Assembly: GCF_002307355.1 (NCBI RefSeq)
Contig: NZ_CP017481.1
Span: 1,612,001-1,676,000 of the forward strand
Length of the DNA stretch: 64,000 bases
Source of the DNA: Pectobacterium polaris
GTDB lineage: Bacteria > Pseudomonadota > Gammaproteobacteria > Enterobacterales > Enterobacteriaceae
Direction: 5' to 3'
The position numbers and the translations under genes are program-made. This document shows, piece after piece, positions 44,576-49,767 of this stretch. The notes beneath the pieces are model-generated. The model had not been told where the DNA came from. It did no database searches and saw nothing but the letters and a program-made list of their open reading frames with translations. Each line of letters opens with the position of its first letter. The first letter of the stretch is position 1.

Positions 44576-46162
44576 TTATACCCGCTTCAACCCCTCCCAG
44601 CTCAGCCCAAAACGTGCCAGATATTTACGCAGCCGATCGGCGTCGTTGGGCTTCTGTTTTTGCTGGCGTGAGACGGCGAACAGGCGGCGGCCAGCTTCGG
44701 AGAGCGAATTGGCGGTGCGGCAGACATCAAGCACGGTTTCAAGCTGGCGCTGTTCGAAGAGGTCGATGTCGGCGAGTTCAGGCGGCAGCTCGGATAGCGC
44801 GGTTGTCGGGGCATCGCTCTGCCAACTGGCCCGCAGGCGAGTGATTTCTTCCTCTGCTAGTGCCACGGTGATGCGCCCTTGTTCCGCCAGTGTCGCCATG
44901 CGGGCAATGGAGGAACCGAGTTCGCGGAAGTTTCCGCGCCATGCTGCCTGTGACGAGCTAGCAAAGGCGAGGTAGTGCTGTCGGGCGTCTTTATCGAAGC
45001 GGATCTGTGTTTGGTGATCTCGTGTGAAGCGCTGGAGTTCATACTCAATGTTCGGTTCGATATCTTCCCGACGTTCCGCCAGCCCCGGTAGAGGGAAAGT
45101 CCACATGTTGATACGGGCGTAGAGATCTTCACGAAATTTGCCCTGTGCGATCCATTCGTGCAGGTTGCGGTGTGTGCCAGCGATCAGCTGGAAATCGCTG
45201 CTGACTTCTTTATCTGAGCCAAAGGGTAAAAAGCGTTTTTCTTCGATGGCCTTGAGCAGCATGGCCTGTTCATCCAGCCCGAGTTCGGCAATTTCATCCA
45301 GAAATAACATCCCGCCGTCTGCTTCACGTAAGAGTCCGGTTCTGGCCTGCAACGCGCCGGTAAACGCGCCTTTTACGTGGCCGAACAGTGTCGACATCGC
45401 GTTGTCGCCGCGCAGCGTGGCGCAGTTAACCGCGACAAATCGACCGCTGACCAGATGGCGGGACTGGCGTAGCTGATAGATACGCTGTGCCAGAAAGGAT
45501 TTCCCCGCACCGGTTGGGCCGGTTAAGAGCATCGGTGCGGTGGAACGCAGCGCGACGCGTTCAATCTGGTCGATCAGCGCATTGAACGTGGTATTACGCG
45601 TCTCGATGCCTGATTTCAGGAACGAGACCGAGCGCTCCTGCTCATGTTGGAAGCGGCTGGTGAGGGTAGCATAGCGGCTGAGATCCAGATCGATTACGGA
45701 GTAGATGCCCTGCGGTGCCGGTCGATCCGCCTTCTCCCCCGGTGCGGTTTGCAGCAGCTTGGCGGGCAGGTAGCGGGCTTCGGTCAGCAGGAACCAGCAA
45801 ATCTGTACGACATGGGTGCCGGTGGTGATGTGAACGAAATACTCTTCGTTTTCGGTATCGAACGGGTAGCGGCTCGCAAAGTCCAGAAAGGCGCTGTAGA
45901 CCTCTTCCAGATTCCACGGGTCGCGCAGTTCAACGGCCTGAAGCGTGACCCGCGTGGCGGGTGACACCACGGCGATATCCTCTGCCACCTGCTGTGCCAT
46001 CCCCTCGTTGCGAGACTGGTGCAGCAGTTCCAGACGGTCGACCGGAAAATCTGGCTGCTGGCACAGGCCGACGGTGGGTCGCCATTTCGTCCAGCGATTT
46101 TCCCGCTTACCCCGTTTGTCCAGCGTGGTGCCCAACACACCAATGACGACGCGACGCTTCAT
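44576..46162 (-). CDS. rtcR: Sigma-54-dependent activator RtcR
   Basis: Activator of the rtc RNA-repair operon (528 residues). The N-terminal part (about 1-180, MKRRVVIGVLGTTLDKRG ... HITTGTHVVQICWFLLTE) is the RtcR CARF-like ligand-sensing domain. The central AAA+ domain has Walker A GPTGAGKSF, the sigma-54-contacting GAFTGA and Walker B MLFLDEIAEL. A C-terminal helix-turn-helix ends the protein. It is divergent from rtcB, with a sigma-54-type promoter and an IHF-like site between. The signal may be a broken RNA with cyclic-phosphate or tRNA-derived ends. Confidence 0.96.
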   Translation of the reverse strand: MKRRVVIGVLGTTLDKRGKRENRWTKWRPTVGLCQQPDFPVDRLELLHQSRNEGMAQQVAEDIAVVSPATRVTLQAVELRDPWNLEEVYSAFLDFASRYPFDTENEEYFVHITTGTHVVQICWFLLTEARYLPAKLLQTAPGEKADRPAPQGIYSVIDLDLSRYATLTSRFQHEQERSVSFLKSGIETRNTTFNALIDQIERVALRSTAPMLLTGPTGAGKSFLAQRIYQLRQSRHLVSGRFVAVNCATLRGDNAMSTLFGHVKGAFTGALQARTGLLREADGGMLFLDEIAELGLDEQAMLLKAIEEKRFLPFGSDKEVSSDFQLIAGTHRNLHEWIAQGKFREDLYARINMWTFPLPGLAERREDIEPNIEYELQRFTRDHQTQIRFDKDARQHYLAFASSSQAAWRGNFRELGSSIARMATLAEQGRITVALAEEEITRLRASWQSDAPTTALSELPPELADIDLFEQRQLETVLDVCRTANSLSEAGRRLFAVSRQQKQKPNDADRLRKYLARFGLSWEGLKRV

Positions 46163-46257
46163 GCGATACCTTTATATAAATTATTATCCTATGGGATAAA
46201 TTTATCTGTTCTTTTATTTCATTGCTAGTTCACGCGGTGGGTTTTTTATTTGTTAAT

Positions 46258-46270
46258 TATCAATTAATTA
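46258..46270 (+). promoter_or_regulatory. IHF-like site in the rtcR-rtcB region
   Basis: TATCAATTAATTA matches WATCAA-N4-TTR fully. It lies 28 bp before the sigma-54 element, where IHF normally bends DNA so the activator can reach the polymerase. Confidence 0.55.
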
Positions 46271-46298
46271 TATTTTTATTTTGTTGTTTTCAGAAAGC

Positions 46299-47589: not shown

Positions 47590-47593
47590 GATC

Positions 47594-48385
47594 ATGATGG
47601 AACACGATTATCGCGTCGATGCAGCCATGCGGACGCGGATCAAATTAGTCTTGCAGGATGTAGAAGAGCGCTATCAGGTGAAGGTGCTGTATGCCTGTGA
47701 ATCCGGTAGTCGTGGCTGGGGATTTTCGTCCCCAGATAGCGATTATGATGTGCGTTTTCTCTACGTGCATCGGCCAGAGTGGTATCTGCGCGTTGAGCCG
47801 CAGCGCGATGTGATAGAGCTGCCCATCGACGATGAACTGGACGTTTGCGGTTGGGAATGGCGTAAAGCGCTTGGCCTGCTCAAGCGGGCTAACCCGACGC
47901 TGATCGAGTGGCTAGATTCGCCCGTTGTCTATCAGGAGGATCGAGAAACGACGTCCGCTCTACGGGAAGCGGTGCCGACGTGGTTCTCTCCGTCCAAGGC
48001 GCGCTGGCACTATCTGTCGATGGCGCGCAAGAACTTTCGTGGTTATCTGCAAGACGAAATGGTGCGCCTCAAAAAGTATTTTTACGTCCTGCGTCCGCTG
48101 CTGGCGGTACGCTGGATAGAGGCAGGCAAGGGTATGCCGCCCATGCGTTTTTCGCAGTTGCTTGCAGGAACGGTAGACGACCCATATCTGCTGGCTGAAA
48201 TCCATCAGTTGCTGGAGATCAAACAGCGTTCGGGTGAGGCGGAATACGGCCCGCGGCGGGAGGCGATCCACGCGTTCATCACGCAAATGCTGAATGATGC
48301 TGATAACCCTGCTGTTTTACCAGACAGTCAGTCTGTTGACGATACGATGCTGGATGCACTGCTGTATCGGACGGTGATGGCGTAA
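47594..48385 (+). CDS. RlaP-like nucleotidyltransferase
   Basis: A 263-residue member of the RNA-repair-associated nucleotidyltransferase group (RlaP, YcgL-like). The pol-beta fold active site is GSRGWGFSSPDSDYDVRF (about 37-54: GS motif and the DxD metal ligands), with a third acidic residue likely in the DELDVCGWEW stretch. A helical C-terminal domain follows. It starts 4 bp after rtcB with AAGGATAAG. The likely role is nucleotide addition or end modification of damaged RNA before or after RtcB ligation; this is inferred from context. Confidence 0.85.
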   Translation: MMEHDYRVDAAMRTRIKLVLQDVEERYQVKVLYACESGSRGWGFSSPDSDYDVRFLYVHRPEWYLRVEPQRDVIELPIDDELDVCGWEWRKALGLLKRANPTLIEWLDSPVVYQEDRETTSALREAVPTWFSPSKARWHYLSMARKNFRGYLQDEMVRLKKYFYVLRPLLAVRWIEAGKGMPPMRFSQLLAGTVDDPYLLAEIHQLLEIKQRSGEAEYGPRREAIHAFITQMLNDADNPAVLPDSQSVDDTMLDALLYRTVMA

Positions 48386-48423
48386 GCATTGATATGGAAG
48401 CGAAAAAAGAGAAGGTGAGGGAT

Positions 48424-49767
48424 ATGGCATCGTACAATTTGCTCCTGCAACAGTTGGAAAAGCTGGTGGCCTCACCAGATAACTATTATCGGCCCGCGCA
48501 GGCTGATGCACTGGGTTCAGCGTCACACCTGATAACGCTAACACGCCACTATAACGGGCATATTCGGCAGCGTGCGGTGCTGTGTCTGGGCTTCATGGAC
48601 GAGCTCTCGGCATTGCCAGCGCTGATTGAACGGGTGAATGATTGGGCTGAACCGGTACGCCGCGCGGCTAAACAGAGTGTGCGACTGCTGTTAACGCCGA
48701 ATAACACTGCGTTTTTTGTCGCCAATTTGCCTGCTATTTTCTGGCTGTTGCAGTGTCAGCGGGAAGATCATCAGCTGTTGGTGGAGGAGATCGTGAACTT
48801 TCTGGCCGAGGAGGCGCACGCGCCGTCGCTATTCGCGGGGTTGTGTTCGGAAGACAAAACCGTCGCCCGATTATCACTGGATATTCTGGCTGAGCGTGAG
48901 CGATTCCCGTTGAAGCAGATCTTTGGTCAGGCGATGTTGCATCGCGATCCGTTAGTCAAAGCGAACGCGGCGCGGTATCTGCTCAGTGCGGACAAGGATG
49001 TCGGTCACGACGTGTTGACCATTCTGTTGAAAGACACGTTCGCCCCCATCAAGCAGGTGGCGTTGCAGTATGTGATAGACAATGCGTTCCCCGTGCCTGA
49101 ACCTCAACTGATTGCCTTACTGTTTGATAAGAACGCATTGGTGCGTCAACGTGCCTCAGCGCTGCTGCGCGAACGAAACGACGATCCGGTTGCGCATTAT
49201 CTTGCGGCACTGGATCGGGCGAGTACCGTTACAGTGCGCAAAATCACGCTCTGGGGGCTGGATGAACATCGCTATGACGGCATTGTGGCGCTGGCGGAGC
49301 GCAATCTGGACGAGTGCTATCCCAGCCTTTACTACAGTGCGTTACGCATTCTCATTCTGCGTACCGGTGATGACGCGCGTGAGCGGCTGTTGGCCTCTCT
49401 GCGTCACCCCTCGCTGGCTATTGCGAAGGTTGCGCGGAAGCTGTTTTACCAGCAGAAAATTTATCTGTCGCTGTCTGAGCTTCAATGTTGTGTGGACAGT
49501 GCGTCTTCCAGAGAACACGCTGAGGTGTACTACTTTCTAGCGCACAAGCTGAATAAATGGGATTGGCTGATTTTCCTGCTGGATAACGCTAAACCAGAGA
49601 ATACGGCACCAACGCAGGCTAGCGTGGCGAGCTGGGTACAGCGGTTCAACCGTTCTGGCATATTACCGAATACCCGGCAGCAGGCACGTTTACGGACGCT
49701 GCTTGATGAAAACCCACACGTCATCTCGCGCGATAGCCCGTATATCGCCCTGTTTTTGTATAGTTGA
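48424..49767 (+). CDS. HEAT-repeat protein of the rtc operon
   Basis: About 447 residues of alpha-alpha repeats. Recurring HEAT-like units include ITLTRHYNGHIRQRAVLCLG, VNDWAEPVRRAAKQSVRLLL, AMLHRDPLVKANAARYLLSA and LLFDKNALVRQRASALLRER. It has no catalytic motif, signal peptide or membrane helix. The ATG at 48424 is preceded by AAGGTGAGG; an in-frame ATG at 48394, 8 bp after the nucleotidyltransferase stop, is also possible. It is likely a scaffold or RNA/protein-binding partner of RtcB or the nucleotidyltransferase. The specific function is unknown. Confidence 0.85.
   Translation: MASYNLLLQQLEKLVASPDNYYRPAQADALGSASHLITLTRHYNGHIRQRAVLCLGFMDELSALPALIERVNDWAEPVRRAAKQSVRLLLTPNNTAFFVANLPAIFWLLQCQREDHQLLVEEIVNFLAEEAHAPSLFAGLCSEDKTVARLSLDILAERERFPLKQIFGQAMLHRDPLVKANAARYLLSADKDVGHDVLTILLKDTFAPIKQVALQYVIDNAFPVPEPQLIALLFDKNALVRQRASALLRERNDDPVAHYLAALDRASTVTVRKITLWGLDEHRYDGIVALAERNLDECYPSLYYSALRILILRTGDDARERLLASLRHPSLAIAKVARKLFYQQKIYLSLSELQCCVDSASSREHAEVYYFLAHKLNKWDWLIFLLDNAKPENTAPTQASVASWVQRFNRSGILPNTRQQARLRTLLDENPHVISRDSPYIALFLYS

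Follow-up and report, generated by a model that had tools for sequence, protein, structure and literature searches.

The rtc locus considered here lies in a window of 64,000 nucleotides (nt) of the Pectobacterium polaris chromosome (contig NZ_CP017481.1, positions 1,612,001 to 1,676,000), the window being the whole stretch of DNA that was analysed; its genome, G000, is a complete chromosome of 4.83 Mb. The locus consists of rtcR on the minus strand followed, on the plus strand, by rtcB, rlaP and a gene for a HEAT-repeat protein, the whole lying between an 89-amino-acid (aa) gene at 44146-44415 and an HNH gene (Table 1). Domain assignments are strong for rtcR (842.6 bits against NF038308, cut-off 650), rtcB and RlaP (322.3 bits against PF10127, cut-off 23, profile positions 1-248 of 249) and clear for the HEAT protein. 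The RlaP product carries the GS...DxD motif of Pol-beta nucleotidyltransferases as GSRGWGFSSPDSDYD, and GS...DSDYD is present in all ten intact Pectobacterium copies, in agreement with the RlaP-type enzyme named in the initial annotation. The spacing of 4 nt between rtcB and rlaP given there also stands, but the second gap does not: relatives of the HEAT protein, most of the 35 found being 446-451 aa long, begin at the methionine of MAS(Y/E), so the start was placed at 48424 rather than 48394 and the gap is 38 nt instead of 8. The closest homolog of the HEAT protein, also from P. polaris, is 96% identical.

Table 1. Genes and predicted regulatory sites of the rtc locus, in window coordinates.
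Feature	Position	Strand	Basis
rtcR: CARF domain and sigma-54 AAA+ activator, divergent from rtcB	44576..46162	-	PF06956 E 5.4e-84, PF00158, NCBIfam NF038308 (RNA_repair_RtcR), PDLC01993
Palindrome TTATCCTATGGGATAA (TTATCC-N4-GGATAA), likely RtcR binding site	46184..46199		Conservation and rarity
IHF-like site TATCAATTAATTA	46258..46270	+	Exact consensus match
Sigma-54-type promoter TGGCACGTCTTTCGCT	46299..46314	+	1 mismatch to consensus
rtcB: RNA ligase	46354..47589	+	PF01139 E 1.1e-131; aligned to solved RtcB chains
rlaP: RNA-repair Pol-beta-fold nucleotidyltransferase	47594..48385	+	PF10127 RlaP E 3e-96; GS...DSDYD motif
HEAT-repeat protein, 447 aa, predicted alpha-solenoid	48424..49767	+	PF13646 E 3.3e-12, 47 bits vs cut-off 27.7
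HNH endonuclease gene (hnh), convergent; right border of exchangeable slot, outside operon	49779..50570	-	PF13391 E 4.8e-13

Taken singly, the sigma-54-type and IHF matches before rtcB are at the level of chance (1 found against 1.09 expected in 64 kb, and 3 found against 2.11 expected, respectively), while the palindrome exceeds it (2 found against 0.08 expected with up to 1 mismatch). The two former sites gain their credibility from conservation across 20 Pectobacterium rtcR-rtcB intergenic stretches, that of the window among them, and not from the single match. The sigma-54-type site is found at -54/-55 from the rtcB ATG in all 20, with 1 mismatch in 19 and 2 in the remaining one, and the IHF site at -95/-96 in all 20 (exact in 18, 1 mismatch in two). 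The divergent promoter with its preceding IHF site, described in the initial annotation, is therefore retained throughout the set. The palindrome TTATCC-N4-GGATAA lies at -167 to -171, exact in 18 stretches and with 1 or 2 mismatches in the other two, and is a likely RtcR site; in print, an RtcR binding profile has been put forward in an annotation paper on Pectobacterium, the sites of this regulator having been unknown (PMC4888284).

A search of the whole genome with PF01137 gave no rtcA, whereas the same search was positive in 5 of 14 control genomes. The absence of rtcA noted earlier thus holds, and the operon is of the rtcB type only, not rtcBA. The genome contains three RtcB genes and one RlaP. 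The second RtcB gene (locus L104, G000:C1:206901-207917) stands directly before a gene with an RF-1 domain (release-factor-like), as in rtcB-prfH pairs; the third (L105, G000:C1:325686-326882) is of 466 aa.

To what extent the genes after rtcB belong together can be seen across the genus. Survey of 25 Pectobacterium genomes, with the loci of 24, the window's included, revealed RtcR in 20 and full-length HEAT in 19; G314 retains fragments of both genes, and G296, whose locus was not among the 24, gave no match to RtcR, HEAT or RlaP. Eight genomes have rtcR/rtcB-rlaP-HEAT (G000, G198, G297, G305, G308, G310, G315 and, with rlaP broken, G313), eight have rtcR/rtcB-HEAT with 16 nt between the last two genes (G295, G298, G299, G301, G302, G303, G306, G316), four have rtcR/rtcB-rlaP without HEAT (G304, G307, G311, G312), and three have HEAT without rtcR (G126, G300, G309). 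HEAT accordingly stands directly after rtcB or rlaP in 16 of the 20 rtcR-positive genomes, which upholds, within the genus, the linkage to rtcB put forward in the initial annotation. A fixed HEAT-rlaP-rtcB trio was rejected: rlaP is absent from 13 of the 25 genomes, eight of which have rtcB and HEAT with no gene between them, and HEAT and RlaP occur together no more often than expected (8 of 25, against 9.1 from 19 x 12 / 25), being adjacent in all eight genomes that have both. Two of the 12 genomes with rlaP carry it broken, by a stop in G304 (L084) and in pieces in G313 (L088), with rtcB intact in both; given these losses and its absence elsewhere, rlaP seems to be the most dispensable member of the operon.

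The remaining layouts bear traces of the linked arrangement. A 3' scrap of rlaP lies just upstream of HEAT in G126 and G309, and the 3' end of rtcB in G300, indicating that the rtcR-negative HEAT loci derive from linked ones; a decayed HEAT start follows rlaP in G307 and G312. Most layouts are explained if rlaP, HEAT or the operon front was lost. The Pectobacterium rtc loci seem to recombine: rtcR and rtcB of the 20 loci give a star-like tree, on which 8 changes are required to account for the downstream gene sets (minimum 4; mean 10.0 on shuffling, with 17 of 200 shuffles giving a value as low).

In two Pectobacterium species, represented by G304 and G311, the position after rlaP that HEAT occupies elsewhere is taken by an unrelated 533-aa protein, predicted to be almost all helical and here called SOL533. 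The next gene in G304 (L084), 11 nt past SOL533, is hnh, just as hnh follows HEAT in the window, while in G311 SOL533 and hnh are separated by a fragment of hnh and another gene. HEAT and SOL533 occur together in none of the 24 Pectobacterium loci. SOL533 has no Pfam family above cut-off and no matching NCBIfam model; a HEAT profile was not matched in the two members scanned, and PF13646 was matched in one of the 120 homologs listed, whose names are hypothetical or limonene hydroxylase, out of 234 at E <= 0.001. Recognisable homology between the two families was rejected, with an hhalign probability of 2.4% (1.0% for a shorter Rhizobium HEAT family, described below, against SOL533). Across the order, SOL533 was detected in 5 of 295 genomes, all five among the 27 with RtcR and all with SOL533 adjoining rtcB or rlaP. 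Of the genomes whose SOL533 context was examined, all 8 proteobacterial ones have it at an rtcB locus and none of the 4 actinobacterial ones does; further homologs come from Serratia, Yersinia, Kosakonia, Pantoea and Burkholderiales, among others. The wider linkage to rtc loci belongs to this second, unrelated family, predicted to be of helical-repeat build, rather than to HEAT.

Structure prediction gave an all-helical model of 27 helices for HEAT (mean predicted local distance difference test score, pLDDT, 91.0; predicted template-modelling score, pTM, 0.78) and an almost entirely helical one for SOL533 (pLDDT 92.2, pTM 0.88). Foldseek returned 78 matches at E <= 0.001 for the former, with designed repeats, karyopherins and the PP2A A subunit at the top, and a single match, the PP2A A subunit, for the latter; the best structural matches of both are generic, that is, designed repeats and scaffold or transport solenoids. 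The median pairwise ratio of non-synonymous to synonymous substitution (dN/dS) is 0.144 for HEAT (n=19), 0.076 for hnh (14), 0.058 for rlaP (10), 0.045 for rtcR (20) and 0.016 for rtcB (20), which argues that HEAT is a maintained protein changing faster than the ligase. The HEAT pair from G126 and G309, both without rtc genes, has a dN/dS of about 0.26 (0.032/0.125). This value lies towards the upper end of the range (0.099-0.273) and is a weak hint at relaxed constraint after loss of the rtc genes.

These observations suggest a model in which the locus is an RNA-repair operon that lacks RtcA and is induced by RtcR, and its last gene would encode an exchangeable alpha-solenoid adaptor for the recognition of substrates or partners; we put the probability of this reading at about 0.5. 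RNA cleavage would leave 2',3'-cyclic phosphate and 5'-OH ends, and the CARF domain of RtcR would bind such fragments, by extension from Salmonella RtcR, which binds tRNA fragments with a 2',3'-cyclic phosphate (PMC7790460). With RtcR on the conserved palindrome and the DNA bent by IHF, the sigma-54 polymerase would transcribe rtcB-rlaP-HEAT, a step predicted from the conserved sites. RtcB, which can itself seal cyclic-phosphate ends (PMC7790460), would close the nick directly; ends with a 2'-phosphate would go unrepaired for lack of RtcA. Nucleotide addition requires a 3'-OH, and RtcB requires a 3'-phosphate or cyclic phosphate. Because addition before RtcB would leave a 3'-OH, RlaP likely acts in parallel, adding nucleotides to 3'-OH ends such as acceptor ends beside rather than before the ligase. 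The repair pathway of the initial annotation is accordingly kept as an RtcR/sigma-54-type operon without rtcA and with an RlaP-type enzyme, while its rebuilding of ends prior to ligation appears chemically awkward. The HEAT solenoid would provide recognition or docking, bringing broken RNA, or a complex holding it, to the repair enzymes. Such an adaptor role is likely in view of the exchange, the fold and the evolutionary rate, since SOL533 replaces HEAT in two relatives and HEAT evolves faster yet under purifying selection. A bolder extension, which we hold only tentatively, is that bacterial RNA-repair operons have an exchangeable adaptor slot, in which the unrelated HEAT and SOL533 families (the latter of about 530 aa) alternate downstream of rtcB or rlaP and determine the broken RNA to which RtcB gains access; SOL533 would then be a repair-dedicated family of Proteobacteria.

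Outside Pectobacterium the HEAT family is rare, and for this family the earlier expectation of linkage to rtcB is not supported there. Of 295 genomes surveyed from the order, five have a member of the window family, three of these being Pectobacterium; of 369 from the class, one has, the window's own genome. The fetched stretches around the homologs of Rahnella, Niallia, G273 and G173 contain no rtcB; the Rahnella gene, the one close homolog outside the genus whose context was examined, lies beside heme genes, away from rtc genes. The G273 homolog, 26% identical in the alignment, is the last gene in a run that also has a gene of 478 aa, ARPP-2 and a gene of 125 aa, while the rtcR-rtcB-rtcA of that genome lies elsewhere (L124). 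In this run at L095 (5397-9724, minus strand), the 478-aa gene has a vWA-like DxSxS motif by inspection and no Pfam match; the run is possibly another RNA-handling operon. A shorter HEAT family is homologous to that of the window (hhalign probability 97.8%), the two having an NDW...VR motif in common, and stands directly after rtcB in two rhizobia, Rhizobium sp. CB3171 and Rhizobium rhizogenes, in the latter with rtcR and a Ro60-type gene ahead of it. Of the 30 plasmid records with this shorter family, nine were fetched, two at rtc loci and seven not; in a tenth record, MK318971, rtcR is about 4.5 kb from the shorter-family HEAT gene by coordinates. That either protein is a typical phage or plasmid gene was rejected: neither had a phage record or a relative in the viral-contig scan, which used six short peptides each and misses distant relatives, and plasmid records numbered two for HEAT and five for SOL533.

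Several results weigh against the adaptor model. The activity of the operon and the binding events are predictions. No promoter-like site was detected between rtcB and the HEAT start, and since scans for promoter-like and terminator-like elements did no better than on shuffled sequence, co-transcription is read from gene spacing. The wider HEAT family is near rtcB in only 2 of 13 fetched loci outside Pectobacterium (the nine plasmid records plus Rahnella, Niallia, G273 and G173), and because HEAT is intact in three genomes without rtcR it may have a job of its own. For SOL533, four of the five genomes in the order belong to one genus (g55), leaving about three independent cases with Pectobacterium counted; the SOL533 gene of a Rhizobium plasmid neighbours rtcR-rtcB-HEAT but faces the operon; and a profile scan found no rtcB, rtcR or rlaP within 7 kb of SOL533 on 4 of 4 actinobacterial plasmids. 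The slot is not strictly one position either, as SOL533 follows rlaP in some loci (L084, L086, L100) and rtcB in others (L112, L115-L117), and without sequence kinship a function common to HEAT and SOL533 is argued from position and predicted fold.

Some of these results are what would be expected if HEAT were a passenger, that is, an independently useful Pectobacterium gene at a recombination-prone spot with no part in RNA repair. Besides the intact copies in rtcR-less genomes, relatives in Rahnella, Pantoea, Duffyella, Niallia and others are not near rtc genes, and agreement between the star-like rtcR and rtcB tree and the sets of downstream genes is poor. The stand-alone Pectobacterium copies, however, carry the rlaP or rtcB scraps of a former linkage; a gap of 16 nt after rtcB, or of 38 nt after rlaP in the window, with no promoter-like site between, fits a single transcript; a distant relative follows rtcB in Rhizobium; and an unrelated predicted solenoid takes the place of HEAT. 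We consider a passenger possible, but would not expect it to be the correct explanation.

An improbable alternative is that HEAT and SOL533 regulate the RtcR circuit in the stead of RtcA, the solenoid stabilising the contact between RtcR and RtcB. In E. coli, RtcA and RtcB bind RtcR, RtcA through the CARF domain, and are reported as needed for RtcR-dependent induction under the conditions tested (PMC9650030); as the window genome has no RtcA, its circuit must do without it. Among the fetched rtc loci, rtcA and a solenoid gene are mutually exclusive, with one genus counting several times. Many loci have neither (e.g. L099, L106, L110, L118, L121), however, and no stand-in for RtcA therefore seems obligatory. 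It is more doubtful still that RlaP and HEAT work as a pair to attach a nucleotide to broken RNA or to a protein, as an effector or in antitoxin-like fashion, with rtcB separate: RlaP has the nucleotidyltransferase motif and in many genomes no rtcB is present in the stretches around it (e.g. L126-L134), but HEAT does not need rlaP, as it follows rtcB in the eight Pectobacterium genomes from which rlaP is gone and is intact in G313, where rlaP is broken.

The operon with its proposed adaptor is a variant of a known system, with the third gene, HEAT, as its new part. As in E. coli rtcR/rtcBA, a divergent RtcR activator with a CARF domain, a sigma-54-type promoter and an RtcB ligase are present; unlike it, the window genome is without rtcA, and rlaP and the HEAT gene follow rtcB instead. 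The locus resembles Salmonella rsr-yrlBA-rtcBA in RtcR control and RtcB, and the model adopted here has damaged tRNA as its signal (PMC7790460, PMC9879122), but no Ro60-type gene was found at the window locus or the other Pectobacterium loci; such genes do occur in rtc loci of Rhizobium, Shinella, Methylosinus, Xanthomonas and Novosphingobium. The association of RtcB and other RNA ligases with RlaP (PF10127), predicted to restore lost nucleotides before ligation, has already been published (PMC7824862), and the available part of that paper mentions no HEAT or SOL533 partner for rtc operons. Accessory genes linked to RtcR and varying by lineage are likewise known from other Enterobacterales, where some of the slipin (SPFH)-rtcB loci also contain rtcA and rlaP, and from PaFlo8 in the rtc locus of P. 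aeruginosa (PMC13086221). Slipin precedes rtcB (with rlaP between in L106 and L111), however, whereas SOL533 or HEAT follows rtcB or rlaP, and slipin was together with a solenoid gene in no locus examined; g55 has two further loci with slipin before rtcB and without SOL533.

RtcR-RtcB operons, RlaP with RNA ligases, and Ro60 and SPFH neighbours are thus on record (PMC7790460, PMC7824862, PMC13086221), while a HEAT or SOL533 partner of rtc operons was not found in the open-licence literature, as far as its text was available; Burroughs and Aravind (2016) may list such neighbours, so absence is unproven. The substrates of bacterial RtcB, and how it finds them, are described as poorly known (PMC7790460, PMC9879122), and two unrelated families of predicted helical-repeat proteins encoded after rtcB or rlaP are concrete, testable candidates for the recognition factor that is lacking. 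Natural Pectobacterium alleles differ in the presence of rlaP and have HEAT, SOL533 or neither of the two; the window genome also shows an RtcR-RtcB circuit that has to function without RtcA, although this protein is reportedly required for induction in E. coli (PMC9650030).

Minor observations concern related genes and the borders of the locus. After rlaP, loci of genus g55 have another RlaP-domain gene, divergent and coding for about 353 aa (L112 10621-12465, PF10127 90 bits; also L113, L116 and L117). On a Citrobacter plasmid (L150 3628-7581), rtcR is found with slipin and an RlaP-type gene and has a RelE/ParE toxin pair beside it, with no rtcB in the fetched stretch. The HNH gene at the right border of the window locus resembles phosphorothioate-type and type II restriction families, and shortened or second partial copies of it are present in several sister loci. 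On the left, a toxin-antitoxin pair adjoins rtcR (43791-44415, minus strand): the antitoxin-like 89-aa gene is intact, and the toxin-like gene, judged by inspection to be of RelE/ParE type, is split over two frames. Eight sister loci, the query's own included, have a full-length match to the toxin, and in another the match is almost complete; RelE/ParE-like toxins bordering rtcR could produce the very RNA ends that RtcB seals.

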